Source: Propionibacteriales bacterium
GTDB lineage: Bacteria; Actinomycetota; Actinomycetes; Propionibacteriales; Nocardioidaceae
Reading direction: 5' to 3'
DNA length: 64,000 nt
Assembly (NCBI GenBank): GCA_009377795.1
Contig: WHTJ01000012.1
Span: 1-64,000 of the forward strand
Each line of letters begins with the position of its first letter. The first letter of the stretch is position 1. The position numbers were made by a program, and so were the translations under genes. The notes below the pieces were generated by a model. The model was not told the DNA's origin. It was given only the letters and a program-made list of their open reading frames with translations, and searched no databases. This document shows positions 22,180-36,920 of this stretch, in pieces.

Positions 22180-22511
22180 GTATGAACGGTTTGACGAGAT
22201 TTGTGATGGGTCTGGACAGGCACACGCGGTAGCGGTAATGTCGCGGACAGCGACAAGGGGTCCTCGAGTCTCCGAGTCTCGAGGGTTCTGGTTCCGAGAG
22301 TGGCGACATCGAGAGATGTCGCATCCGAGCGCTCGTCGGTTCCCCCAGGGTTTCGCGGTACGCCCTGCGTGAGGACGATCTCTGAGCGCGTGCATCCCGA
22401 GAAACTTCAAGGAATAAGGGAAAACGAGAGTTCTCCCGGAATACAGACGGTTGCCACAGAACACCGGGCCGGCTGGTGCGGCCCAACTCTTCTCGGGGTG
22501 GTGAACGGCGA
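22180..22511 (+). repeat. duplicated leader region, copy 1
   Basis: About 330 bp of non-coding DNA before the first paralogous secreted protein. It resembles 26240-26550 block by block and in the same order: GAGATTTG, TCTGGACAG, GGTTCTGGTTCCGAGA, GCTCGTCGGTT, ACGGTTGC, and TCTTCTCGGGGTGGTGAA running into the gene. Conservation outside the reading frame suggests promoter or 5' UTR control shared by the two genes. No canonical -35/-10 pair can be singled out. Confidence 0.6.
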
Positions 22512-23969
22512 ATGGTCGCAGGGGCCAGGACCACCGTGCGTGGTCGTGCGAGGCGGATTGCCTTCGGCGACGCGGGTGCCACAACCCGCGCCGACGGACG
22601 CGTCCTCGTGGTCGCTGGGCTGGCCGCCGTCGTCATGGTCGTGTTCGGGTCTACGGCCCACGCGGCCGACGAAGCTCAAGCAGCCGACCAACCGGATTCG
22701 TCCTCCACGGCCGGTTCGGCAGCCGCCACCGGCACCTCGGTGTCGGGCGGAACGCCGACGGAACCGGAGGAAACAGCGGCCGCCGCGCGACCCCGCGCGC
22801 AGGCTGGCCGAGCGTCGGTGGAGGAGACCAGTCAGGCGGATCAGCGAGCACCCACCGTCCCCGCGGTAAGCGGTAGCTCCGTTGCCCCCTCGGATACGTC
22901 GAGCACCGGCTCAGCGGAGGACGAAGCTGCTGCTGAGACGGTCTCCTCCACCGACCATACGGACGCGGCAACCGCGGCGCCGGCACCTCCAGGATCCACC
23001 GAGGGGGTGCTCGGCGCCGTGACCGGCGAGGCCGCTTCGATCCTCGGCGAGAGCCCTGGATCGACGCCGACGGAACGGTCGGTGACGCCGGCCACGCAGT
23101 CGACAACGGGGCCGTCGGCACAGCCGCTCGGCGGGCCGCAGCCCGCCGAGCCCGCCGTCCCTGCCGATCACGCCGATCACGCCGATCACGCCGACGGACC
23201 GGCCCGACCGCCACTCGGCACGGGTGTCCTGCAGGACCTCATGAACCAGCCGGCGACGTTGCCCCACCAGGCGGTCTCGACCGTGAAGCAGGCCGTCTCG
23301 TCGTTGCCGGTGGCGCGGTCGGCGGTTCCCCGGCGTACGGTCGAGGGGGTGCTCGGGGATGTCACCCACCAGGTGGACGGCGTGACGAACGGCGTACTCG
23401 ATCAAACGGCCGACGGGGTCACCCGCGACGCGGTGGAATCGGTGGTCTCCATTCTCCCGGGCCGCCTGAACGCCCGGTCCGGCGGCGACGACCAGGCCAG
23501 CGAAGCCACCGGGGAATCTGCGATCGACCACGAGCCCGCGCCCGGTGCGTTCGGATCGGATGACGTGTCCGCCGGTTCGGTACCGGTGCCGACCGTTCCC
23601 AGGGTGCCCGCGCATGAGGGCGGGTCGGACGGCCCGGCGCACGCCGCGGGGTTCATTCAGCACACCGCCGCGGGCGACGCGGTCCGCAAGACATCCTCAC
23701 CGGCTTCGCACGGCATGGACCCGGCGTCCCAAGCCGGCGCCGGCGCGAGTCCGGAGCTGCCCGTACCTGGTTCGATGAGCCTGCCTGGCGTAGTCGGCGT
23801 GACCGGCCATGGCGGTGGGTCCGTCCATTCCGGTGGGGGAGCCGATCTCGGTCCGGTCGACACAGCCGCACTGAGCCTTCCTGGTACGTCCACTCCCGGA
23901 GCCGTGCATGCGGTGGGGTGGCGTCTACCGGGATCCCCCAGCTTTGATTCCGGCCAGTCGCCCGATTAG
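22512..23969 (+). CDS. secreted low-complexity protein, paralogue 1 of 3
   Basis: 485 aa, no known domain. The signal segment VLVVAGLAAVVMVVFGSTAHAAD (about 32-54) follows a basic N-terminus beginning MVAGARTTVRGRARR. The body is rich in Ala, Ser, Thr, Pro and Gly and probably extended. A block ASVEETSQADQRAPTVPA recurs in the two paralogues, and the end WRLPGSPSFDSGQSPD is matched in paralogue 3. A short HADHADHAD run comes from a 9-bp DNA repeat near 23165. ATG 22512 is chosen because all three paralogues align from MVA; the Shine-Dalgarno sequence is weak. It has no C-terminal anchor. Confidence 0.65.
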   Translation: MVAGARTTVRGRARRIAFGDAGATTRADGRVLVVAGLAAVVMVVFGSTAHAADEAQAADQPDSSSTAGSAAATGTSVSGGTPTEPEETAAAARPRAQAGRASVEETSQADQRAPTVPAVSGSSVAPSDTSSTGSAEDEAAAETVSSTDHTDAATAAPAPPGSTEGVLGAVTGEAASILGESPGSTPTERSVTPATQSTTGPSAQPLGGPQPAEPAVPADHADHADHADGPARPPLGTGVLQDLMNQPATLPHQAVSTVKQAVSSLPVARSAVPRRTVEGVLGDVTHQVDGVTNGVLDQTADGVTRDAVESVVSILPGRLNARSGGDDQASEATGESAIDHEPAPGAFGSDDVSAGSVPVPTVPRVPAHEGGSDGPAHAAGFIQHTAAGDAVRKTSSPASHGMDPASQAGAGASPELPVPGSMSLPGVVGVTGHGGGSVHSGGGADLGPVDTAALSLPGTSTPGAVHAVGWRLPGSPSFDSGQSPD

Positions 23970-24049: not shown

Positions 24050-24892
24050 ATGAATGCGAAGCTCCGTAAGAGCATGACGAGAGCGGTCGGGGCAGGTCTG
24101 ATCGCCGGAGGCCTGACCGTCGCCGGCACAGCGGTAGCCCAGGCCGACACTGGGTGGGCGACCCAGGACGACAGCGGTCTGGACCCCGGAGTCGTGGTCC
24201 AGACCGTCACCGAACGGGTCACGGCGCCGACCGGCAGTGCGCCGGCGGACGAGAGCATGTGCATCGCCATCTACCCACCGCCGCCGGGCTGTAGTGACGG
24301 GCCGGTCGGTGACGTCGGCGTGTCGGCCGCTCTCGATGCGGCCAGCCGGCTCACGACCACGGTCGTCGACGGGATTCAGTTGACCCCGCGCGGCCAGCAG
24401 GCACCCGCGCCGCTCTCTGGGTCGTCGGATGACGTGGGTGCCTGCGGCTGCGACGCCGATCCCACGCCTCCTTCTTATCCGGACCGCGAGCATGGCGAGA
24501 TCGCGATCGGATCCTCGAACGCGAGCGGTCAGGCGGCAGGCTCGGACGCAGATCCGGGCGCGACCACGGGCGAGCCCGTTGCGGTGGTCCGTCCCGCGGG
24601 AGCAACCACGGTCTCCACCGGCAAGGACCGAGCAGGTAAGTCGACAAGTACCGGAACCCCCCAGGCGGCCGGTCAATCCGGCGCGGGCGGCGACGGTGCG
24701 AGTGAGTACGGCCCGGGCCAGGTGACGCATCTGCCGGTCGGCGGCGTCGCCGCTGGTGAGGGGACCTCCGCGCCCGGCAACGGCTGGCTGTACGGCGCAG
24801 GCGGGCTGGCACTGTTCGCCGCGCTCGGAGTCGGGATCACCGCGCGACGCCGCAGCCCGCAGCCGGTAGGCAACCGAGTCAGCGATCGGTGA
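24050..24892 (+). CDS. surface protein with a sortase-type LPVGG-TM-Arg tail
   Basis: 280 aa. It has a signal peptide (1-32, GLIAGGLTVAGTAVAQA) and a Gly/Ala/Ser/Thr-rich stalk containing four Cys in two pairs (MCIAIYPPPPGC, ACGC). The C-terminus has the sorting layout: HLPVGG at 227-232, a Gly-rich spacer, a membrane helix (246-265, WLYGAGGLALFAALGVGITA) and RRR (266-268), followed by a 12-residue tail. It should therefore be the substrate of the sortase encoded two genes downstream. GGAGAAGGAA precedes the ATG. The pseudosortase gene begins 4 nt after the stop. Confidence 0.75.
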   Translation: MNAKLRKSMTRAVGAGLIAGGLTVAGTAVAQADTGWATQDDSGLDPGVVVQTVTERVTAPTGSAPADESMCIAIYPPPPGCSDGPVGDVGVSAALDAASRLTTTVVDGIQLTPRGQQAPAPLSGSSDDVGACGCDADPTPPSYPDREHGEIAIGSSNASGQAAGSDADPGATTGEPVAVVRPAGATTVSTGKDRAGKSTSTGTPQAAGQSGAGGDGASEYGPGQVTHLPVGGVAAGEGTSAPGNGWLYGAGGLALFAALGVGITARRRSPQPVGNRVSDR

Positions 24893-24896
24893 TCTC

Positions 24897-25550
24897 GTGA
24901 GTCCCACGAGACGCGGCGGCCGACGGGGCCTCGCGGTCTCGGTGGCCGTCGTAGCGCTCGCCCTCATCCTGGCGATGATGATGGGCGGCGCCTTGATCAA
25001 CGGCGGCCCGAATCAGCCCTCCGACGCGGCCGGTCAAGACGGGGCGGCCGGCGCGGACCGTACCGACGACAGCACCGGCTCGACCGGGCCGGCGTCCAAG
25101 GTCGGATCCATGCCCGAGGCGCTCGTCATACCGGCCATCGGGGTGAACGGCGAGTTGCTGACGTTGGGGGTCACGAGGAAGGACACCGTCCGCCAGCCAT
25201 CCGTACCGACCAAGGCCGGATGGTTCGGACAGTCCGCGGTCCCCGGGGACCCAGGGGTGTCGGTGATCGTGGGCTACATCCGCAAGTCGGAGAGTCAGCC
25301 GGGTGTGTTCGCGCGGCTGTCCGGTTTGAAGGTGGGGCACCGGATCTCGGTACGCCGTTCCGACAGCACGGTCGCGGTCTTCCGGGTGGACGAGATCGCG
25401 ACCTACCCGAAGGGAAGGTTCCCCACCTCCAAGGTGTACGCAGCGACGGCCGACGCCGAGCTGCGTGTGATCACCGGCGGAGGGACCCTCGGTCCGAAGG
25501 ATCCGCCGGGCAATGTGGTCGTCTACGCCAGCCTGGTCGGCCCGCGATGA
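24897..25550 (+). CDS. sortase-fold protein lacking catalytic His and Cys (pseudosortase 1)
   Basis: 217 aa: an N-terminal helix (LAVSVAVVALALILAMMMGGAL), a linker, then a class F-like sortase fold (about 75-217). The catalytic His position is Tyr127 (VIVGYIRKSESQPGVF) and the Cys position is Gly194 (LRVITGGGTLGP), so it cannot act as a cysteine transpeptidase. The frame is intact, the fold is otherwise complete, and the gene sits 4 nt after its likely substrate and overlaps the active sortase by ATGA. That argues for a retained, non-catalytic role such as substrate binding or sortase regulation. Pseudosortase 2 at 35808 shares its altered motifs. Confidence 0.8.
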   Translation: MSPTRRGGRRGLAVSVAVVALALILAMMMGGALINGGPNQPSDAAGQDGAAGADRTDDSTGSTGPASKVGSMPEALVIPAIGVNGELLTLGVTRKDTVRQPSVPTKAGWFGQSAVPGDPGVSVIVGYIRKSESQPGVFARLSGLKVGHRISVRRSDSTVAVFRVDEIATYPKGRFPTSKVYAATADAELRVITGGGTLGPKDPPGNVVVYASLVGPR

Positions 25551-26230
25551 CCGGCGAGCCGCGGGGCCGGCACCGGGCGATCGCCGACCCTGTCGCCGGG
25601 AGGGCCCGACATCTCGGCGGCGCCTTCGCCGCTGCCGCCGTACTGGCCGTCGTCGGGTGTGCCCTGCTCACCTTCGCAGTGGCACGCGGCGACGGCCCTC
25701 CGCCGTCCCCGGAAGCCGGACCACCGGCCCCCGCGGGCTCGCGAACCGACGCGACAGCCTTGGCCCGCTCGGTCCCGGTCCAGGTGACGATCCCCACGAT
25801 CGGGGTCAAGTCCCCTCTCATGACGCTCGGGATCAACGCGGACCGGACGCTCCAGGTGCCACCGCTCAGCCGGGCGGGCACGGCGGGCTGGTACCGCCAC
25901 TCCCCCACACCGGGCCAACGCGGACCGGCCATCATCGTGGGGCACGTGGACTCGGAATCCGGGCCGGCCGTCTTCTACGAGCTGAGCTCGCTGCGGCCGG
26001 GCGACGCGGTGCGGGTACGTCGCGCCGACGGAGTCGTCGCCGTCTTCACCGTCGATCGGGTGGTCGCATTCTCGAAGGACGACTTCCCGACCGGGTTGGT
26101 GTACGGCGACATCGACCACTCCGGACTCCGGCTCATCACCTGCGGCGGCACGTACGAACCGGACACTGGCGGCTACGAGGACAACACGGTGGCCTTCGCC
26201 TCGCTGGATCGCATCGAGAGCGCCGAGTAA
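25547..26230 (+). CDS. class F-like sortase, catalytically intact
   Basis: 227 aa with an N-terminal membrane helix (about 24-46) and an external sortase domain (about 78-227). The catalytic His133 is in AIIVGHVDSESGPAVFYEL and Cys199 in LRLITCGGTYEP, followed by GGYEDNTVAFA. I could not settle the third (Arg) catalytic residue by eye. It should cleave the LPVGG motif of the 24050 protein and attach it to the wall or to another acceptor. Its ATG overlaps the pseudosortase stop (ATGA), so the two are made together. Confidence 0.88.
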   Translation: MTGEPRGRHRAIADPVAGRARHLGGAFAAAAVLAVVGCALLTFAVARGDGPPPSPEAGPPAPAGSRTDATALARSVPVQVTIPTIGVKSPLMTLGINADRTLQVPPLSRAGTAGWYRHSPTPGQRGPAIIVGHVDSESGPAVFYELSSLRPGDAVRVRRADGVVAVFTVDRVVAFSKDDFPTGLVYGDIDHSGLRLITCGGTYEPDTGGYEDNTVAFASLDRIESAE

Positions 26231-27288: not shown

Positions 27289-27367
27289 AACTTCAAGACC
27301 GACGGTCGCCATGAACAGTGGTCGGCAGCAGCCGACGCACATTCTCTCGGGTGGTGGAATTCGGCAG

Positions 27368-28918
27368 ATGGTCGCAGAGGCAATGACCACGAGATGTGGT
27401 CGAACCGCGAGGCGCGAATGCGCTGGCGGTGTGGCGTTATGGGTTCGCTACACCGGCCGCGTTGTCGTCGTCGCGGGCGTCGGCGCGGCCGCAATGGTGG
27501 CGATGAGCTCTACGTCCAACGCCACCGATTCGACCGCCTTGGGTGACCTACTAGGACCGAATTGGTCCACGAACGAGACCGCGAACCAGCACGTCGACGA
27601 CGCGCTGATTCCGGTCCTTGGACTGGTCGACGTCGACAGCCTGACCAACCTGTCGACGACGACCCGACGGCCGACGGCTTCGCTCCCCGCTGGGCACGTC
27701 GGCAAGGCGCCGGTGGAGGAGATCGCCCCGGCAGATCAGCGACCACCGACCGTCCCCGCGACCGGCGACAGCTCCGTGACGTCCCCTCCAGTCATGTCGA
27801 GTGCCACCGCGGAGGACGGCGCTGAGGCCGCGATCTCCTCCACCGATTGCGCCGATCTCAAGTCCACGACGGCGACTCGCCCTTCCGGCCACCGCCGCTG
27901 CGTACCCGGCCAGGACACAGGCACGACATCGCAGAACGGGAGCGACTCCAGGCAGTCGAGCGGGTACGGCGTTGCCGACCCACAGTCGCGACCGGACGAC
28001 GAGCTCTCGGCTCCAGCGACGGCTCCGACCGAGCCCACGTCGTCGCACGATGCCCAGCCAGGGACGGCCGATTCGACCGGACTCGGCCGGGCTGTCCTGG
28101 ACTTGGTGTCCGGGCAGGCCGCCACCCAGGCGGACTCGGCCGACACCACCGCGCCAGGGCCGACCGGCACCGAGCCGACCCCCGCCATCCCCGGGATCGC
28201 ACCGAGGAGACCGGAGGGCGGGATCGGCGACCTGACCCGGCTCGCCCTTCAACCGGTCACCCGCCTCCCGGGCGGACTCCGACCGCTGACGAAGACCGTA
28301 GATCGGGTCAGCGTCGGCGCGGTGGAGCCCGTCGTGGACTCGCTCGCCGAACCTGTGGTGTCGGCGGTCGGGTCCGGCGGTCTGTCCATTCCGGTGGACT
28401 CGTCGGGCGTGCGCAAGGTGGTGAGCGGACTCCTGTCCCATGGGCAGTCACCGACATCCGGAGCCAGCCGCTACGCCGGTCGTGACGATGCCGACCACGG
28501 CGACCCGGGCGCTCCGGCGAGCGACCTGCCGGTCCCGGCGCTTCATGAATCCGGCGGCATCGACGGCGAGACCTCGTGCATCACGACCGGACCCGGCGCC
28601 TGCGCCCTTGTGGGCGCGAGCGCCGGCCGGCAGCCGGCCACGGGCGCGGCCCTATCCGACCGGCTACCCGGCGGTGCTCCGGACGGCGAAGGTAGGGCAT
28701 CGGGCATCCGCATGGCTGGTTCGCCGAACCAGCCGGTCGGCTCTGGCTCGGGCAGTCTCGCGGGCGGCTCGGCGCCGTCCGGTGGAGCCGTCAGTGCGGG
28801 ACCGACCGACACCGACACCCTCGGGCTTTCCGGCCCACCGGAGGCCGGGCTCGTCCCCGCCGGCTCATGGCGCTTGCCAGGATCCCCTACGTACGCTCCG
28901 GGACACTCTCCCGATTAA
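27368..28918 (+). CDS. secreted low-complexity protein, paralogue 3 of 3
   Basis: 516 aa. A basic N-terminus (MVAEAMTTRCGRTARR) is followed by a signal segment (VVVVAGVGAAAMVAMSSTSNA). The core GKAPVEEIAPADQRPPTVPA matches paralogues 1 and 2. The end, SWRLPGSPTYAPGHSPD, matches the end of paralogue 1 at about 11 of 17 positions. The body is Ala/Pro/Gly/Thr-rich with paired Cys (SSTDCADL, ETSCITTGPGAC). It may be a wall-associated, extended protein. No membrane anchor is visible. ATG 27368 is taken by alignment; an in-frame upstream ATG lies at 27311. Confidence 0.6.
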   Translation: MVAEAMTTRCGRTARRECAGGVALWVRYTGRVVVVAGVGAAAMVAMSSTSNATDSTALGDLLGPNWSTNETANQHVDDALIPVLGLVDVDSLTNLSTTTRRPTASLPAGHVGKAPVEEIAPADQRPPTVPATGDSSVTSPPVMSSATAEDGAEAAISSTDCADLKSTTATRPSGHRRCVPGQDTGTTSQNGSDSRQSSGYGVADPQSRPDDELSAPATAPTEPTSSHDAQPGTADSTGLGRAVLDLVSGQAATQADSADTTAPGPTGTEPTPAIPGIAPRRPEGGIGDLTRLALQPVTRLPGGLRPLTKTVDRVSVGAVEPVVDSLAEPVVSAVGSGGLSIPVDSSGVRKVVSGLLSHGQSPTSGASRYAGRDDADHGDPGAPASDLPVPALHESGGIDGETSCITTGPGACALVGASAGRQPATGAALSDRLPGGAPDGEGRASGIRMAGSPNQPVGSGSGSLAGGSAPSGGAVSAGPTDTDTLGLSGPPEAGLVPAGSWRLPGSPTYAPGHSPD

Positions 28919-29514: not shown

Positions 29515-32500
29515 ATGACTATCCATCGCTGGAGCGGCCACAATAGGTCGGACGCTCCACCAGGATGGCAGCCGATAGGCCTGCCATCCGAGGCATCGCC
29601 GGGAACGGACGCCGATCCGTGTCCGGCGAAGGCGATCGCCCGCCACAAGGCGCCGAGTAGAGCGCTGCGCAAGTCGGTACGGGCGATGGCTGCTCCGATG
29701 ATCGGGCTGGTCGCAACGCTCGGGATGACGACCGCGGCTGCCGCGCACCCAGGCGTGTTGCAGGCCGCGGACAGCCTGCCCGCGCCTGGGCTGCCGTCCC
29801 TCCCACAAGCGGGTGATGTCACTGGTGGTGGCAGTCCGCTGGATTCGCTGCCTCAGCCGGGTAGCGTCCTTGGCGGCCGGGGCCCGCTTGGTGGCGGGAG
29901 CCCGCTGGGCTCGCTGCCTCAGCCGGGTGATGTGACCGGTGGTGGCAGTCCGCTGGATTCGCTGCCTCAGCCGGGTAGCGTCCTTGGCGGCGGGAGCCCG
30001 CTTGGTGGTGGCAGTCCGTTGGATTCGTTGCCTCAGCCGGGTGATGTCACTGGTGGTGGCAGTCCGTTGGATTCGTTGCCTCAGCCGGGTGATGTGACCG
30101 GTGGTGGCAGTCCGCTGGATTCGCTGCCTCAGCCGGGTGATGTCACTGGTGGCGGGAGCCCGTTGGATTCGCTCCACTCGCTCCCACAGCCGGGTGGCGA
30201 CGCCGGCGACCTGACCCCCAGCCTGCCGAGTCTGGACCAGGTGACGTCGCTTCCTTCGGTCACTGAGCCCGACGGCGCCGACGCGAACGTGTGGACGCCA
30301 GGAGCGGCGACCAGCGAGCCCGACGGTGCGACCTACTTCGGGCAGCTGTCCACCAGCAACCCGGTCGAGGGCGCACCGCTCGACAACGGCGGTCACGTCT
30401 ACCCGGCCGACCCGACGGCACAGAACTTCAACGGGTCGACCGGCGATTGGGCGGCCTATCAGGAGTACTCGCCGTTCTGCCACGCGCGCGGTGTCACCTG
30501 CGTGAACTGGAACTTCCAGCACGAGCAGAGCGGTGGGCCGGCGGGCCCGGGCGACGGGTTCATTCGCGTCAACGGCGACTCGCTGGGTGTCGCACCGTGC
30601 ATTCCGAACAACGGAGTCGCGCGGTGGGTGTCCCCGATGTTCACCTACAGCACGCCCAATGCCGACAGCTGGGCGGTCAACTTCGACCACCGGCAGACCG
30701 AGCTGCTCGCGGGTGAGGGCCACTCGACGTACAGCATCCAGGTCCTGGATGAGGCCGGCCGAGTGGTGACCACGGCGCACGGGCCGGAGGCCACCTTCCC
30801 GCTCAACCAGTGGCGGAGCGTGGAGACGGCGTTCGACGGCTCCAAGCTGGTGTACGGCAAGAACTACCGGATCAGCATCATGGTGGACGTCGTCCATGCA
30901 GAGACCGCCCTGAACTGGGGCAACATGGACTTCGACAACGTCAGCATCACCGCGGTTCCCGCCAAGCAGAACGGTGACGCGGCGGCGACGCCGTACACGG
31001 TCTGCAAGGCCAACGGCGATGCCGGCCTCTCCATGGCCGGGCTCTTCGCCGGACGTCGGCAGGACTTCTGCCCGGTGACCAACCAGCTGGGCCAGGGCGC
31101 TGCGCCGCTTCTGGACGTCGCCAACGACGTCATGACCAGCGAGCCGTTCAACGGCGTGTTGGACAAGGCGAGTGGTGCGTTCGCTGTGGCGGATCTCGAA
31201 ACCGGGCAGTTCCTCGGCTATCTGTTCGGCAAGGAGTCGATCCCCAGCACGGATCCGCGCAACCTGGTCGCCTACGTGAAGGACGGCACCCTCGGTGAGG
31301 CGGGGAACTACGTGGTGGTCTTCGCCATGAAGACCCTGGAGCTGCCGCCCATGCTGCTGGAGGACCCTGCGGGGAACCTGCAGAGCATCACCGCGGGTCA
31401 GCTGGAGAACCTGACCCGGGTCGTGTCCGATCCGGGCCGGCTGACGCGGATCCCGCTCGACTGGCAGGCGGACAACGCCAAGTTCGTGCTTCACACGATC
31501 CTGAACCCGCTGACGTCGGACACCAAGCGCGACACCGCCCTCGGTGGCGTCGTGTGGTCGGACGAGGACGCCGACGGCAGCCTCGACGACGGTGAGCCGG
31601 CGGTTCCGGGTGTCGACGTGACGTTGACCGACGTCAACGGCAACCAGTACGGCACCCAGACCACCGACGAAAACGGTGGCTACCGGTTCTCGGGTCTGCA
31701 GCCACGGTTCGACCCGTCGAGCTACTTCGTCACCTTCGACCCGGCCTCGCTGCCCGAAGGAGCGTCCTTCACCCAGCAGCACGCGCCGGGCACGGTACAC
31801 GGCACCACGTCCCACGCGGACGAGGAGTCCGGCCAGACCGGTCGGATCACGGTGGCTCGGTACGAGGAGGACATGAACTGGAACGCAGGCCTGGTCGATG
31901 CCTCGGCCGGTGAGCCTGGTGACCCGGGCGACCCCGGCGATCCCGGTGACCCGGGCGACCCCGGTGACCCGGGTGACGAGGCGTCGATTGCCGTCGGATC
32001 GCCGACGGTCAACGGCGAGCCCGCGACCGGCGATGGTCCCACGGTGCCCGAGGGTGAGGAGATCACCGTCGTGGTTCCGGTGACCAACACCGGCGATGTG
32101 CCAGTGTCCGGCCTCAGTGGCGAAACCGAGTTCGGCGAGATGGTGTGCGAACCGGTTTCGCTGCAGCCAGGCGAGACGGCCGACTGCGCGGTGACGACCA
32201 CCGTGGAGCGCGGAGCTCAGGACCTGCAGATCACGTTCACCGCGCAAGACGAGAACGGCGAGCCGGTGAGCCAGAACTGCACCGTCTCGTACACCGGTGA
32301 GCTGGTCCGCCACGGTGACGTCGCCGTGACCGACAACGTGATGGTCAACGGCGAGTCCGTCGACCCAGCGGAAGACGTCACGCTCGAGGAGGGCAGCGAG
32401 TCTCAGCTCGACCTCGAGGTCGTCAACCGTGGCGACGCTCCGATCCGGAACCTTTCCGCCTCCTCGGAGAGCGGTGAGGTGGCCTGCGCATCGTCGACGC

Positions 32501-32682
32501 TGCGACCCAGCGAGTCGACGACGTGCACGCTGCAGTTCACGCCGGAGTCCGGACCGGACTCCGTGAAGGTGCAGGTCGTCGGCACCGACAGGTCCGGTGC
32601 GACGTCGAGAGCGGCGCAAACCATGGCCTACATCACCTGCGGGTGTAGCGATGACGTGGCCGGCAACGGCCGCAACGCGTAG
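29515..32682 (+). CDS. large secreted repeat adhesin with LPQPG repeats, an SdrD-like domain and GDP repeats
   Basis: 1055 aa. The signal-like helix (59-77, AAPMIGLVATLGMTTAAAA) lies behind an unusual 52-residue polar N-terminus. Residues ~86-228 are tandem repeats of the type SLPQPGDVTGGGSPLD. A jelly-roll-like, probably carbohydrate-binding domain (about 265-480) follows. An SdrD B-like domain lies near 675-735 (WSDEDADGSLDDGEPAVPGVDV). A collagen-like GDPGDPGDPG stretch is at about 800-822, then two related Ig-like repeats (823-930, 935-1045) with Cys pairs. There is no C-terminal membrane anchor or LPxTG. ATG is preceded by CGGAGAG. The MFS gene starts 22 nt after the stop. Confidence 0.8.
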   Translation: MTIHRWSGHNRSDAPPGWQPIGLPSEASPGTDADPCPAKAIARHKAPSRALRKSVRAMAAPMIGLVATLGMTTAAAAHPGVLQAADSLPAPGLPSLPQAGDVTGGGSPLDSLPQPGSVLGGRGPLGGGSPLGSLPQPGDVTGGGSPLDSLPQPGSVLGGGSPLGGGSPLDSLPQPGDVTGGGSPLDSLPQPGDVTGGGSPLDSLPQPGDVTGGGSPLDSLHSLPQPGGDAGDLTPSLPSLDQVTSLPSVTEPDGADANVWTPGAATSEPDGATYFGQLSTSNPVEGAPLDNGGHVYPADPTAQNFNGSTGDWAAYQEYSPFCHARGVTCVNWNFQHEQSGGPAGPGDGFIRVNGDSLGVAPCIPNNGVARWVSPMFTYSTPNADSWAVNFDHRQTELLAGEGHSTYSIQVLDEAGRVVTTAHGPEATFPLNQWRSVETAFDGSKLVYGKNYRISIMVDVVHAETALNWGNMDFDNVSITAVPAKQNGDAAATPYTVCKANGDAGLSMAGLFAGRRQDFCPVTNQLGQGAAPLLDVANDVMTSEPFNGVLDKASGAFAVADLETGQFLGYLFGKESIPSTDPRNLVAYVKDGTLGEAGNYVVVFAMKTLELPPMLLEDPAGNLQSITAGQLENLTRVVSDPGRLTRIPLDWQADNAKFVLHTILNPLTSDTKRDTALGGVVWSDEDADGSLDDGEPAVPGVDVTLTDVNGNQYGTQTTDENGGYRFSGLQPRFDPSSYFVTFDPASLPEGASFTQQHAPGTVHGTTSHADEESGQTGRITVARYEEDMNWNAGLVDASAGEPGDPGDPGDPGDPGDPGDPGDEASIAVGSPTVNGEPATGDGPTVPEGEEITVVVPVTNTGDVPVSGLSGETEFGEMVCEPVSLQPGETADCAVTTTVERGAQDLQITFTAQDENGEPVSQNCTVSYTGELVRHGDVAVTDNVMVNGESVDPAEDVTLEEGSESQLDLEVVNRGDAPIRNLSASSESGEVACASSTLRPSESTTCTLQFTPESGPDSVKVQVVGTDRSGATSRAAQTMAYITCGCSDDVAGNGRNA
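29791..30195 (+). repeat. tandem 48-bp coding repeats inside the adhesin gene
   Basis: In-frame imperfect repeats with core GATTCGCTGCCTCAGCCGGG, encoding SLPQPG seven times plus one SLPQAG. Units alternate between DVTGGGSPLD and SVLGG types. Near-identical third positions among units suggest recent expansion or gene-conversion-like homogenisation. Confidence 0.85.
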
Positions 32683-32704: not shown

Positions 32705-34381
32705 TTGACTGAGCATCCAGAAGCGGTGGGGTGTGGTCATCTCGGGGCCACACCCCACCCCGCCTATGTGTGGGGCACGTCGATCGTCGTACTCGGCGTG
32801 CTCCTTCATCTGCCGATGTACGTCGCGTCCCGCGACGTGCAGTTCCACATGCGTGGCATGGCGATGGATCCGTGGATGCAAGTCGGCATGATCGCCATCG
32901 CCATCGGCCTCGTCCTCAGCTACGCCGGAATTGCCTTGCCGACAAGGCGAACCGAACTCCTCGCCGGGGCGGGCTCACCGTCGCCCACCGCCACAGTGCG
33001 CTCGGCGGCGAGGCCGCAGGTCGATACGGAGGCCCCGTCCGATCGGCTGCGGCCCGCGCATCGCAGGTTGGTCGCCGCGCTGATCTTCGCCGTGGCCATC
33101 GACACCCAAAAGCCGTTCACCTTCACCTTCATCGTGCCCGATGCCGCGGCCGAGTACGGGCTGTCGACGCCCGCCGCGCCCGTTCCCGGTGCGCTCCCGG
33201 TCGCGCTGCTCCCGCTCAGCGGCATCGTCGGGACCGCGATCGGCTCGTTCATCTGGGGATTTCTCGGCGATCGCATCGGCCGGCGCTCGGCCCTGTTGTT
33301 CGCCGCCGTGCTCTTCGTCGCGACCTCCGTATGCGGGGCGATGCCCAGCTTCACATGGAACGTCGTGATGTGCTTCGTCATGGGTCTGGGAGCCGGGGGG
33401 ATGCTGCCCGCCGCGTACGCATTGCTCTCCGAGACCATGCCCACGCGACACCGCGGAAAGCTGCTGGTCCTCGTCGGCGGCATGGGCACCGCGTTGGGGT
33501 TCGTGGCGGCCGCGCTGGCCGCGGCCTGGGTGATGCCGGTGTTCGGGTGGCGGATCATGTGGCTCATCGGTGCTCCGACCGGCCTCGCACTGTTGTACGC
33601 CAGTCGGTTCATCCCCGAGTCGCCGCGCTTCCTGCTGGCGCGCGGCCGGAGTGCCGAAGCGGGGGACGTACTGAATACCTTCGGATCTCCGCTGCCGATG
33701 CTGGGCGGGCTCGACGGGTCCACCGGAGACCGGCGGACCTCGGTCGTCTCCCTGTTCTCCCGCCCCTACACGTACATCACTGCGGGCCTGGTCATCTGCA
33801 GTGCCGCCTGGGGCGTCGTCACCTTCGGGTTCCTGGTGTGGCTGCCGGACAACGTGGCCGCACTCGGCGTCGGCACCGAGCAGATCAACGACGTTCTGGC
33901 GCGGAGCGCATTGATCGCCTTGCCGGCGGCGGTCGTCGTCGCGTGGCTGTATGCCCGCTGGAGTTCCTACCGCACCATGGTGTCCGCGGCGCTGCTCACC
34001 GCACTGGTGCTCACCGTCTTCGGGCTGACCGGCCCGGCGGTCGCCCAGACCGCAACCGCCCTGCTGGTCCTGGTGCTCGTCCTCCTGGTCGGTACGTGGG
34101 CGGTCGCCGCCGTCGTGACGCCGTACTCGGCCGAGGTGTATCCGACCGACGTGCGTACGCGAGGCGCCGCGATCACCGCAGGCGCCGGGAAACTCGGCGG
34201 CGTCGTCGCACTCACCATGGCGGCGACCGGGATCACGCCGCCCGGGCTCGCCGCCTCCGCCACGTTGGCCGCCATCCCGATGCTCGTCGGCGCCGCCCTG
34301 CTTCTGGCGTTTGCGGTGGAAACCAGGGCCCAGCCGCTAGAGATGGTGACCGCCACCCTCGACCGGGAGCGACGGCCATGA
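32705..34381 (+). CDS. MFS transporter with an extra N-terminal two-helix segment
   Basis: 558 aa. Two helices (VWGTSIVVLGVLLHLPMYV and VGMIAIAIGLVLSYAGIAL) and a ~50-residue linker precede an otherwise standard 12-helix major facilitator core (about 115-540). It has the DRIGRR loop (GFLGDRIGRRSALL) and the sugar/organic-acid porter motif PESPRFLLARGR. Substrate is unknown. The TTG start with GAGGCGG upstream is preferred; GTG 32726 is an alternative. It lies between the adhesin (22 nt) and the FAD oxidoreductase (4-nt ATGA overlap), indicating one operon. Confidence 0.85.
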   Translation: MTEHPEAVGCGHLGATPHPAYVWGTSIVVLGVLLHLPMYVASRDVQFHMRGMAMDPWMQVGMIAIAIGLVLSYAGIALPTRRTELLAGAGSPSPTATVRSAARPQVDTEAPSDRLRPAHRRLVAALIFAVAIDTQKPFTFTFIVPDAAAEYGLSTPAAPVPGALPVALLPLSGIVGTAIGSFIWGFLGDRIGRRSALLFAAVLFVATSVCGAMPSFTWNVVMCFVMGLGAGGMLPAAYALLSETMPTRHRGKLLVLVGGMGTALGFVAAALAAAWVMPVFGWRIMWLIGAPTGLALLYASRFIPESPRFLLARGRSAEAGDVLNTFGSPLPMLGGLDGSTGDRRTSVVSLFSRPYTYITAGLVICSAAWGVVTFGFLVWLPDNVAALGVGTEQINDVLARSALIALPAAVVVAWLYARWSSYRTMVSAALLTALVLTVFGLTGPAVAQTATALLVLVLVLLVGTWAVAAVVTPYSAEVYPTDVRTRGAAITAGAGKLGGVVALTMAATGITPPGLAASATLAAIPMLVGAALLLAFAVETRAQPLEMVTATLDRERRP

Positions 34382-35811
34382 CGTCTTCCCCGAGAGAGGA
34401 GATCCCGTTCATCTCCATCGGCGGCGGCCTCGGGTCGTTCGCGCTGGTGCACCGCCTGCGCATCGCCGGCGTCCCGGAGGACGACATCCGGGTGATCTCA
34501 CCGCACCGCGCGCCGTACGAGAGGTTCGCCGCGCTCTGCCGCGCGTCCGGACTGCTCGACGAGGACAAGCTGCGCTCGGATTCGTCGGCACGCATGGACA
34601 ATCTCTGGGGCTTTCCCAGCTACGCCGTCGAGGAGTCGTGGCGGACGAGACGGCCGGGGCCGCTCGCGCGGGTGTTGGCCGAGCCCGTTCTCTGTGACTA
34701 CTACACACCCAGTGTCGGTCTGATGCGAGCCGGCATGGCTCGCGAGACCGACCGGATCGGCTGGGATTCCATGCTGGTCGAGGGTTCGGCGATCAAGGTG
34801 GCCAGACAGACCGGCGGCGGCTACCTCGTTCTCGTACGCCGGGACGGTGCTGACCGGCCGGTTGCGTACCGCTGCGGCCATGTCCATCTGGCACTCGGTC
34901 CCGCCGCCCTGCAGATCAGTCCGGAGGCCGCGGAGTTCCGCAGCGGTCCTCTCGGAGGTGATCGGATCGTACACATCTACGAGCCGCATGAACACGTGCA
35001 CGAGGCCCTCGCGGCCCAGGGTGGAGAGGTGCTGGTGCGGGGTACCGGCATTGCCGCGTCTCGAGTGTTGCAGCGGCTCATCGACGATCGCGAAGCATCC
35101 GGCCAGGACGTGCGGATCCGGCACCTTTTCCGGCACTACCAGCGAGGTGACGTCGGGCCGATCTGGTTCCGGAAGCGGGGAGGGTATGGATTCAGCCATC
35201 AGGCATTCAACTTTCCGAAGGCGGCGGTCGCCGGCCAGCTGCGCGATCGGACCCGCCGACTCGCGGAGGACGAGCGCATCGAGTTCGTCAAGGAGATCGG
35301 CGCGACGTCCACGCCGTACCGCGGCTACTGGGCAAGCCAGCTCCGGCGAGGTCGCGACGAGGGGTGGTACCAGGCCGTCGTCGGCGAGGTGGCGGCATTC
35401 AAGACCGACGGTGACGAGGTCGTGGCTCGGATATCTCTGGATACCGGCAAGGCTCTCGAGGTCCGGGCCGGTTTCGTGATCGACGCCACCGGCGTCGATC
35501 GGGACTCCCGGCGCCATCCCCTGCTCGCCGATCTCGTGGCCGACACCGACGCCTCCGTCAACCCGCTGGGCGGTCTGCGGATCGACGAGGACTTCACGGT
35601 AGTGGGCGCCGAGAGCGGCGACGGCCGGGTGTTCGCGTCGGGGATGAACGCTCAGGGCGGCTACCTGGCTCCGGTCGACTCGTTCGCCGGTCTGCACAGT
35701 GCCGCGATGTCCATTGCCGACGCGCTGGCCGGACGGGGTATTGGTCATCGGCTGACGCCGCTGAAGTCCGTTCTCGGCTGGCTGAAATGGATGAGGGGGC
35801 AACAGCCATGA
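34378..35811 (+). CDS. FAD/NAD(P)-binding oxidoreductase of unknown substrate
   Basis: 477 aa. The N-terminal dinucleotide fold starts FISIGGGLGSFALVHRLRIAG. A second Rossmann glycine motif is near residue 220 (GEVLVRGTGIAASRVLQRLID), and FVIDATGVD lies near residue 370, the pattern of flavin-dependent monooxygenase/reductase families. The C-terminal GRVFASGMNAQGGYLAPVDS resembles the FAD-site region. No signal peptide, so cytoplasmic. It is translationally coupled to the MFS gene before it and the pseudosortase after it (ATGA overlaps at both ends), so it should work with them. Confidence 0.75.
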   Translation: MTSSPREEIPFISIGGGLGSFALVHRLRIAGVPEDDIRVISPHRAPYERFAALCRASGLLDEDKLRSDSSARMDNLWGFPSYAVEESWRTRRPGPLARVLAEPVLCDYYTPSVGLMRAGMARETDRIGWDSMLVEGSAIKVARQTGGGYLVLVRRDGADRPVAYRCGHVHLALGPAALQISPEAAEFRSGPLGGDRIVHIYEPHEHVHEALAAQGGEVLVRGTGIAASRVLQRLIDDREASGQDVRIRHLFRHYQRGDVGPIWFRKRGGYGFSHQAFNFPKAAVAGQLRDRTRRLAEDERIEFVKEIGATSTPYRGYWASQLRRGRDEGWYQAVVGEVAAFKTDGDEVVARISLDTGKALEVRAGFVIDATGVDRDSRRHPLLADLVADTDASVNPLGGLRIDEDFTVVGAESGDGRVFASGMNAQGGYLAPVDSFAGLHSAAMSIADALAGRGIGHRLTPLKSVLGWLKWMRGQQP

Positions 35812-36920
35812 CCTTGACCCTGGCAGGGCGCCTGCAGACCCGACTCGTGCTGCTTGCCGCCGTCGGCGTCCTGTGGACGCTGCTGATCGTTCCGGCGTTG
35901 CCCGGTCCGGTGTCGGCGGCGGCGGCCGTGGCGACGATTGGCGTCATCGCCCTCCTCGGACTCGGCTGGGAGCTGGTCTATCACCTCTGCCAGCAACTGC
36001 GGTGGGACAAGGACTGGCCGAGCGTCTTCACCCTCGTGGCCGGCGTGCCCGAGGCGGTCGTCGCCTGGCCCGCCTTGGTGGCGCTTGGGCTGGCTCCGGC
36101 CTCTGTAACAACCTACGTTCTGCATTTCGGCTCTACCTGGGTGGTGATCTGGTTGGCAATGCAGGGCCCGATCCGGGCGCTCTTCCCCCGCTGGCGGTAC
36201 GACGGAGGGCTGTTCGGCGTCCACCGATCGGAGGGTGAGGTCGGCTCACGATCGGAGACGGAGCGGTATCGGATGACGAGACGAACGGTCGCGGTCGCGA
36301 CCGGGATAGGCGTCACCCTCGCCGTCGTTCTCGCGATCGGCGTGACCGTGCTCGGCGGCTTGCAGAGCCCGCCGAGCGACGCCTCGGATGGAGCCGCCGG
36401 TTCTCCGGGTACGGCGGAGCGGCAACGGGACCGGGGCGACAACGCAGGTTCCCGCGACTCGGCTCGGCGCAACCGGCCGATCCCGAAGAGGGTTGCCATC
36501 CGGGCGATCGGGGTGCGGAGCAAGCTGGTGACGCTCGACGCCAAGAAGGGCGGCCGGATGGAGCTGCCGCGAAGGGCCCGCGCGGGCTGGGACACCCGTT
36601 CCGCGATTCCCGGCCGGAAGAAGGGCGTGGCCATCATCGTGGGATCGATCCGAAAGTCCGCGATCCGGCCGGGAGTGTTCAAGAAGGTCCCGAGGCTCGA
36701 GGCCGGAGCCAAGATCCGCGTACGCAGATCCGACGGCAAGAAGGCCATCTACGTGGTCACGGGCATGGTGAGCTATCCGGTGGATCAGTTCCCGGCGAAG
36801 TACATATATGCACCGACCAAGGAGCCACTCCTTCGGATCATCACCGCCGGAGGAGGGCTCTATCCAGGGAACTCATCCGGATATGTCGTCGTCACGTCCC
36901 GCCTCGATGCGACCCGCTGA
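35808..36920 (+). CDS. multi-TM protein fused to a sortase-fold domain lacking His and Cys (pseudosortase 2)
   Basis: 370 aa. Four helices occupy residues ~13-127 and a fifth about 160-184 (VAVATGIGVTLAVVLAIGVTV). The external domain (about 226-370) is a class F-like sortase fold. The His position is Ser280 (AIIVGSIRKSAIRPGVF) and the Cys position is Ala347 (LRIITAGGGLYPG). Both pseudosortases keep IVG-x-IRKS-x3-PGVF and IT-[AG]-GG, unlike the active sortase, so they form a distinct subgroup. The fused membrane domain is unlike ordinary sortase anchors. It is last in the adhesin-MFS-oxidoreductase operon, with a strong hairpin 150 bp downstream. Confidence 0.8.
   Translation: MTLTLAGRLQTRLVLLAAVGVLWTLLIVPALPGPVSAAAAVATIGVIALLGLGWELVYHLCQQLRWDKDWPSVFTLVAGVPEAVVAWPALVALGLAPASVTTYVLHFGSTWVVIWLAMQGPIRALFPRWRYDGGLFGVHRSEGEVGSRSETERYRMTRRTVAVATGIGVTLAVVLAIGVTVLGGLQSPPSDASDGAAGSPGTAERQRDRGDNAGSRDSARRNRPIPKRVAIRAIGVRSKLVTLDAKKGGRMELPRRARAGWDTRSAIPGRKKGVAIIVGSIRKSAIRPGVFKKVPRLEAGAKIRVRRSDGKKAIYVVTGMVSYPVDQFPAKYIYAPTKEPLLRIITAGGGLYPGNSSGYVVVTSRLDATR

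Follow-up and report, generated by a model that had tools for sequence, protein, structure and literature searches.

Why should a bacterium keep a sortase that has lost its catalytic residues, and why should this protein be joined to a multi-helix membrane domain? The question is raised by a gene in the first 64,000 nucleotides (here, the window) of contig WHTJ01000012.1 from a bacterium of the family Nocardioidaceae (GenBank assembly GCA_009377795.1). The window also encodes a stand-alone pseudosortase, here pseudosortase 1, and an active sortase (Table 1). A sequence-only reading of the locus, made without database searches, had taken the two pseudosortases for a separate, functional subfamily of class E/F sortases and had held that the fused helices are not an ordinary sortase anchor.

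Table 1. Coordinates of the fusion gene, its parts, and the neighboring genes in the window.
Feature	Position	Strand	Basis or remark
Putative sortase substrate, secreted	24050..24892	+	C-terminal signal HLPVGGVAAGEG, TM helix, RRR
Pseudosortase 1, stand-alone type A	24897..25550	+	Domain matches, alignment, tree
Active class F sortase, His and Cys present	25547..26230	+	NF033748, 206 bits; ATGA overlap with pseudosortase 1
Large secreted repeat protein, SdrD_B domain	29515..32682	+	PF17210, 77.2 bits
MFS transporter	32705..34381	+	PF07690, 113.8 bits; ATGA overlap with flavoprotein gene
Flavoprotein-like protein, 477 aa	34378..35811	+	Two GxGxxG-type dinucleotide-binding motifs; ATGA overlap with fusion gene
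Pseudosortase-membrane fusion gene	35808-36920	+	370 aa; ATG at 35808, stop 36918-36920
Four-helix membrane domain (aa 1-145)	35808..36242	+	Relative of stand-alone ~140-aa membrane protein encoded after flavoprotein elsewhere
Fifth helix (aa ~156-178), N-terminal anchor of the pseudosortase itself	36273..36341	+	Model helix 157-178, sequence context
Pseudosortase domain, class F-like	36465..36914	+	PF04203, NF033748, Foldseek sortases
Ser280 codon, catalytic His position	36645..36647	+	Alignment with active sortase
Ala347 codon, catalytic Cys position	36846..36848	+	Alignment with active sortase

The open reading frame of the fusion is uninterrupted, and its GC fractions at the three codon positions (0.67/0.54/0.83) are normal for a genome of 69% GC; a second in-frame ATG lies at 35787. 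In the protein, a four-helix membrane domain comes first, then one more helix, and finally a sortase domain of the class F type. Residues of about 225 to 365 match PF04203 with 31.6 bits (curated cut-off, 26.6), so that the criterion for the sortase superfamily is met. The best NCBIfam model is the class F sortase NF033748 (cut-off, 166 bits), with scores of 101.5 for the fusion, 139.6 for pseudosortase 1, and 206 for the active neighbor. The class is thus F, not E, as the earlier wording had allowed, and the fusion itself fails the class F criteria both on score and on the catalytic His and Cys. An AlphaFold model of the fusion shows helices at residues 3-30, 34-63, 71-92, 98-125, and 157-178, which bears out the extra helices claimed before, and then a sortase-like barrel, although its mean pLDDT is only 57. 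The top Foldseek matches of this model are all sortases (E about 1e-6). The model of the sortase domain alone was poor; because both sortase-domain models are of low confidence, an intact groove is not shown. As a separate observation, an in-frame ATG with an upstream GGAG is found at 36273, just ahead of the fifth helix. Translation from this codon could possibly yield a separate 215-aa pseudosortase resembling pseudosortase 1, which remains untested.

Alignment with the island's active sortase and with 55 active homologues confirms the earlier assignment of Ser280 and Ala347 to the catalytic positions. The active sortase has His and Cys there, and in the tree alignment His and Cys are each found in 55/55 active homologues; the label “active” was partly defined by the His, and the Cys played no part in the definition. 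Pseudosortase 1 has Tyr at the His position and Gly at the Cys position. The catalytic Arg was considered as well, and its loss is not usable as evidence because even the active class F sequences lack a conserved Arg C-terminal to the Cys.

The fusion and pseudosortase 1 have the motifs IVGxIRKS-x3-PGVF and IT[AG]GG in common (IVGSIRKSAIRPGVF and IVGYIRKSESQPGVF in the two pseudosortases versus IVGHVDSESGPAVF in the active sortase), and the active sortase lacks them. The sequence-only reading had claimed this pattern and had named two results that would refute its interpretation, namely, that the motif is common in active sortases and that the two pseudosortases do not group together. The pattern held as stated, and the motif is not common in active sortases. 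The exact DNA-level signature gave two matches in the genome of the window and none in the 341 other family genomes searched; beyond the family, it was matched solely in Arthrobacter castelli among 84,980 species genomes. This match is likewise a dead sortase (GYIRKS, ITSGG); its gene is flanked by those of a secreted protein and of an active class F sortase. “PGVF” by itself does not discriminate, as active sortases of a related genus have GHVRWSGRPGVF; the distinctive half is “IRKS”.

On the second point, the two pseudosortases do fall into one clade of dead sortases, type A (this name and type B, used below, were coined in this analysis). Type A contains 10 sequences, both window copies included, from nine genomes, one of which is micrococcal: the genome of the window, A. 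castelli, G265, G489, G218, G152, G141, G188, and G330. A maximum-likelihood tree of 70 sortases separates the nine aligned type A proteins from the rest by a branch whose support is 100/99. The support is 97/90 after both catalytic-loop regions are dropped from the alignment, and thus type A was not created by the shared motifs alone. The window fusion lies on a long branch, and the data neither favor nor rule out a sister pairing of the two window pseudosortases (AU p = 0.53). The family search gave scores of at least 183 bits for type A proteins and of no more than 139 for the next matches, and the best of these next matches (G109) retains His and Cys. Because of this gap and the active residues of G109, we place type A in 7 of the 337 family genomes. 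Stand-alone type A genes directly adjoin an active class F sortase gene in all nine genomes. The window fusion is the exception, as it has no adjoining active sortase; the active sortase is 9.6 kb away, and the fusion belongs to a different operon, that of the flavoprotein.

A second clade, type B, is found in six genomes (support of 99/97 with the catalytic-loop regions removed) and carries the motifs VIGSxDxxF and LRLVGYD...RNTIVFA. Type B domains are attached to the membrane domain seen in the window, and the very next gene is that of an active class F sortase in six of the six genomes. This recurrence of the fusion architecture in six other genomes, with a second pseudosortase clade, goes beyond anything claimed before. 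The fused domain of the window groups with type A, and a tree constrained to place it in type B is worse by 22.5 log-likelihood units (AU p = 0.07); such a placement is thus not formally rejected. As the same kind of test does not exclude that all dead sortases had one origin (AU p = 0.39), we do not claim two independent losses.

Other searches delimit the phenomenon. An initial contig scan with a two-sequence alignment, in which uninformative peptides were used, found no confirmed relatives. A plasmid search returned only matches below 44% identity, the best of which are annotated as class F sortases. The 30 best-scoring loci of a class-wide profile search, the window aside, all retain His and Cys, and dead sortases are therefore not a general feature of the class.

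Are these genes simply decaying? In the comparison of G336 with G199, dN/dS is 0.17 for the fused pseudosortase domain, 0.23 for the active sortase domain, 0.31 for the membrane domain, and 0.47 for the linker; between type A pairs it is about 0.3-0.5. These low values indicate that the pseudosortase genes are not decaying. A decaying sortase duplicate with a chance fusion would account for the lost catalytic residues and for the long branch of the window copy, but the open frame, the normal codon GC, the conserved clade, the recurrence of the fusion in six other genomes, and dN/dS values well below 1 in close pairs leave almost no room for it. The recurrence of dead sortases beside a working one in distantly related bacteria suggests that we are probably dealing with a real non-catalytic partner in the assembly of the cell surface rather than a broken gene. 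The proposed separate subfamily is supported by relatives in eight other genomes, by the fixed adjacency to active sortases, and by purifying selection, while its function is inferred.

A second possibility is that the pseudosortases employ an altered chemistry, with Tyr or Ser at the His position and Thr, Ser, or Cys at the Cys position forming a different catalytic center. In its favor, Tyr occupies the His position in 8/9 aligned type A proteins (the window fusion has Ser), Thr occupies the Cys position in 5/9, and one member, encoded at locus L063, keeps the Cys. However, type A proteins have any of T, S, C, G, and A at the Cys position, type B proteins have a deletion or Phe there, and the window fusion itself, with Ser and Ala, lacks a nucleophile at this site. 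With the Cys position variable in type A and lost in type B, we consider this explanation unlikely. The L063 protein (positions 1459-1923, genome G489), in which the catalytic Cys is retained (LITCGGTLKPKDPPGN) and Tyr replaces the His, might represent an intermediate on the way to activity loss.

As to the helices, the claim that they are not an ordinary sortase anchor held, since the domain has its homologue in a separate membrane protein that is encoded after a flavoprotein gene. Residues 1-145 of the fusion share 41% identity with the stand-alone protein of G002 (locus L008) and 51% with the fusion of G336. The membrane domain is present in 37 of the 337 family genomes, usually as a stand-alone protein, and was not found in a search of the A. 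castelli genome. At the loci that were read and have no sortase domain, the membrane protein follows the same flavoprotein, and an FHA-domain gene comes next in two of them. In at least seven genomes (the window, G336, G199, G218, G152, G141, and G188), the membrane domain is extended by a dead sortase, and in 7/7 fusion loci the flavoprotein stop and the membrane-domain start overlap by 4 nt (ATGA or GTGA). We conclude that the membrane domain is the translationally coupled partner of the flavoprotein; as it usually stands alone and is coupled in this way, the fusion joins two modules. Because the attached domain is of type A in the window and of type B in the six others, two different dead sortase domains are joined to the membrane domain. 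Most economically, the membrane domain was joined to dead sortases twice, or one domain was swapped for another; whichever the route, the combination of membrane domain and dead sortase was selected for.

At 14 other loci, the membrane protein or the fusion is preceded by a flavoprotein homologue with 41-54% identity. No Pfam or NCBIfam family includes the flavoprotein, a PDB search gave no identification, and its only weak profile matches are FSP1 and Trp halogenase. Together with a GGGxGS motif and a second dinucleotide-binding motif, this similarity does no more than suggest an FAD/NAD(P) enzyme of no described family.

The surroundings of these genes are equally regular. The complete order, found in four genomes (L138-L141), is adhesin, flavoprotein, membrane/type B fusion, active sortase, and type A. 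The order in G336 and G199 is similar, with no type A gene seen within the stretch read, and that in G265, G489, G330, and A. castelli is substrate or adhesin, type A, and active sortase. In the window, the parts are distributed over two operons, one with the putative substrate, pseudosortase 1, and the active sortase and the other with the repeat protein, the MFS transporter, the flavoprotein, and the fusion; ATGA overlaps couple pseudosortase 1 to the active sortase and the last three genes of the second operon to one another. The repeat region of the large secreted protein resembles the adhesins of related islands (tblastn matches upstream of the flavoprotein at L138-L141 and L146). The MFS transporter, which has an N-terminal extension of about two TM helices, had no tblastn match in 15 related loci, and a defense-system library gave no match.

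The island adhesins end in P-x-G-[GS]-V-x-[TA]-G, a TM helix, and basic residues. This signal lies within 1.5 kb of 25 of the 67 class F sortases examined, with no occurrence in reversed sequences, and the tail of the putative substrate in the window matches it. It looks like a class F counterpart of LPxTG, with V-x-T-G replacing P-x-T-G. An extended form, P-x-G-[GS]-V-x-[TA]-G-x-G with a TM helix and an Arg cluster, was noted in the same window protein and at L018, L023, L045, L057, L059, L060, and L062; further loci with the extended signal are L063, L068, L075-L103, and L138-L141.

Some side observations concern the same regions. (i) Long low-complexity secreted proteins near the islands (22476-23969 and 27311-28918 in the window; L063, 4053-6467) end in [PS]xxGxSPD, with the tails WRLPGSPTYAPGHSPD, WRLPGSPSFDSGQSPD, and STFDPGFSPD. 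(ii) Several family genomes contain secreted frames of about 1,000-2,400 aa with a class F-like sortase domain (L061, 735-4802; L069, 2-3661; and others). In the two that were read fully, this domain lies at the C-terminus and retains its His and Cys (GHVSDRRDRPGAFGKL ... LVTCTG); we regard these frames as a sortase fused to a large surface protein. (iii) The type A island of G265 (L181) shares a contig with rpsF-ssb-rplI, a MATE transporter gene, and dnaB, and the type B islands of G336 (L060) and G199 (L135) adjoin dnaB, with a MATE gene also in G199. These surroundings may hint at a single ancestral location.

An alternative is that only a redox module is involved: the flavoprotein and the four-helix protein would form a membrane oxidoreductase or sensor, and the dead sortase would be an added extracytoplasmic binding domain unrelated to anchoring. 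Most carriers indeed have the flavoprotein and membrane protein without a sortase, some beside an FHA-domain gene, and the sorting signal was found in 0/26 unfused flavoprotein loci. Against it, every fusion locus outside the window has an active sortase directly after the fusion and an adhesin before it, and we therefore regard this alternative as improbable.

The fold, the loss of His and Cys, the separate clade, purifying selection, the recurrence of the fusion, and the fixed neighborhood with an active class F sortase, an adhesin, and the flavoprotein are shown. The role must be inferred from them. We favor, with moderate confidence, the view that the fusion is the membrane-bound dead component of a dedicated class F sortase island displaying large repeat adhesins, in which it would act as a non-catalytic adaptor. 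The pseudosortase domain would retain a peptide-binding groove and work without catalysis, either by holding the sorting signal of the adhesin or by binding to the active sortase. The four-helix domain, in turn, would connect this extracytoplasmic module with a cytoplasmic flavoprotein; surface anchoring may thus be coupled to, or recruited by, the flavoprotein-membrane module. There are no interaction, expression, or localization data for these steps. That Cys-less sortases still bind substrate is supported by the titles of structures among the Foldseek hits (“C208A Sortase A bound to LPATS”). Further points against an adaptor are the distance and separate operon of the window fusion relative to the active sortase, and a flavoprotein of no described family whose substrate is unknown.

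The same genomic evidence fits a decoy or brake, which remains possible. Here the pseudosortase would occupy the sorting signals or the active sortase and limit anchoring, perhaps being released by the redox state of the flavoprotein. Pseudoenzymes often inhibit their active paralogues, and separate stand-alone and usually fused lineages would permit one activator and one inhibitor. However, the sequence gives no preference for inhibition over assistance. A bolder version of the adaptor reading is also conceivable, in which a surface-display system of five components would pair active class F sortases with conserved dead ones as their obligate partners, and the cytoplasmic flavoprotein, via the fusion of membrane domain and pseudosortase, gates or energizes the covalent anchoring of giant adhesins. 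If true, this would be a redox-linked sortase complex without a known counterpart.

Work on sortases treats each of them as an enzyme acting alone, for which a substrate and a cell wall precursor suffice. The conserved dead sortase that accompanies a live one, in two clades and in islands of five genes, implies that complexes with non-catalytic paralogues are the working form of at least some sortases. Given the flavoprotein link, one may also ask whether cell wall anchoring can be tied to the redox or metabolic state, and P-x-G-[GS]-V-x-[TA]-G provides a definition of class F substrates that can be tested. The earliest study of the class F sortase was in Propionibacterium acnes (Di Girolamo et al. 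2019, cited in PMC13251363). Its physiological roles are described as unknown; deletion of all four class F sortases of Actinoplanes missouriensis left the sporangia normal, and proteins beside two class F sortases were left unassigned for want of a pentapeptide motif (PMC13251363).

Compared with known systems, the fold and the pathway are familiar, and the non-catalytic partner and its fusion appear to be unreported; no report of conserved dead sortases was found in the literature searched, with subscription journals mostly outside its scope. All three window sortases share fold and sequence with the class F family, NF033748 being their best family match. The fusion differs from a class F sortase by the absence of the catalytic His and Cys, a score under the family cut-off, and the attached four-helix domain, and the pseudosortases differ in being encoded beside a normal class F sortase (stand-alone type A and type B fusions, the window fusion excepted). 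With FSP1-like and other flavoproteins with two dinucleotide-binding motifs, there is only weak profile similarity in the second half of the flavoprotein (E = 0.25), which is not a member by any tested model. A closer likeness is SipA, a protein with the signal-peptidase fold and without catalytic residues that is essential for pilus assembly in Streptococcus pyogenes (PMC4049620). It too is a catalytically inactive relative of an enzyme that processes peptides at the membrane surface, and its gene lies with those of a sortase and of surface proteins; the holding role proposed above for the pseudosortase is drawn partly by analogy with it. SipA differs in that its fold is that of a signal peptidase, it assists pilus polymerization, and it has neither a multi-helix fusion nor a flavoprotein partner. 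Gram-positive sortase islands and pilin gene clusters likewise have a dedicated sortase beside a large adhesin substrate, whereas the islands described here add two kinds of dead sortase and a flavoprotein-membrane module and use P-x-G-[GS]-V-x-[TA]-G rather than LPxTG as the signal.
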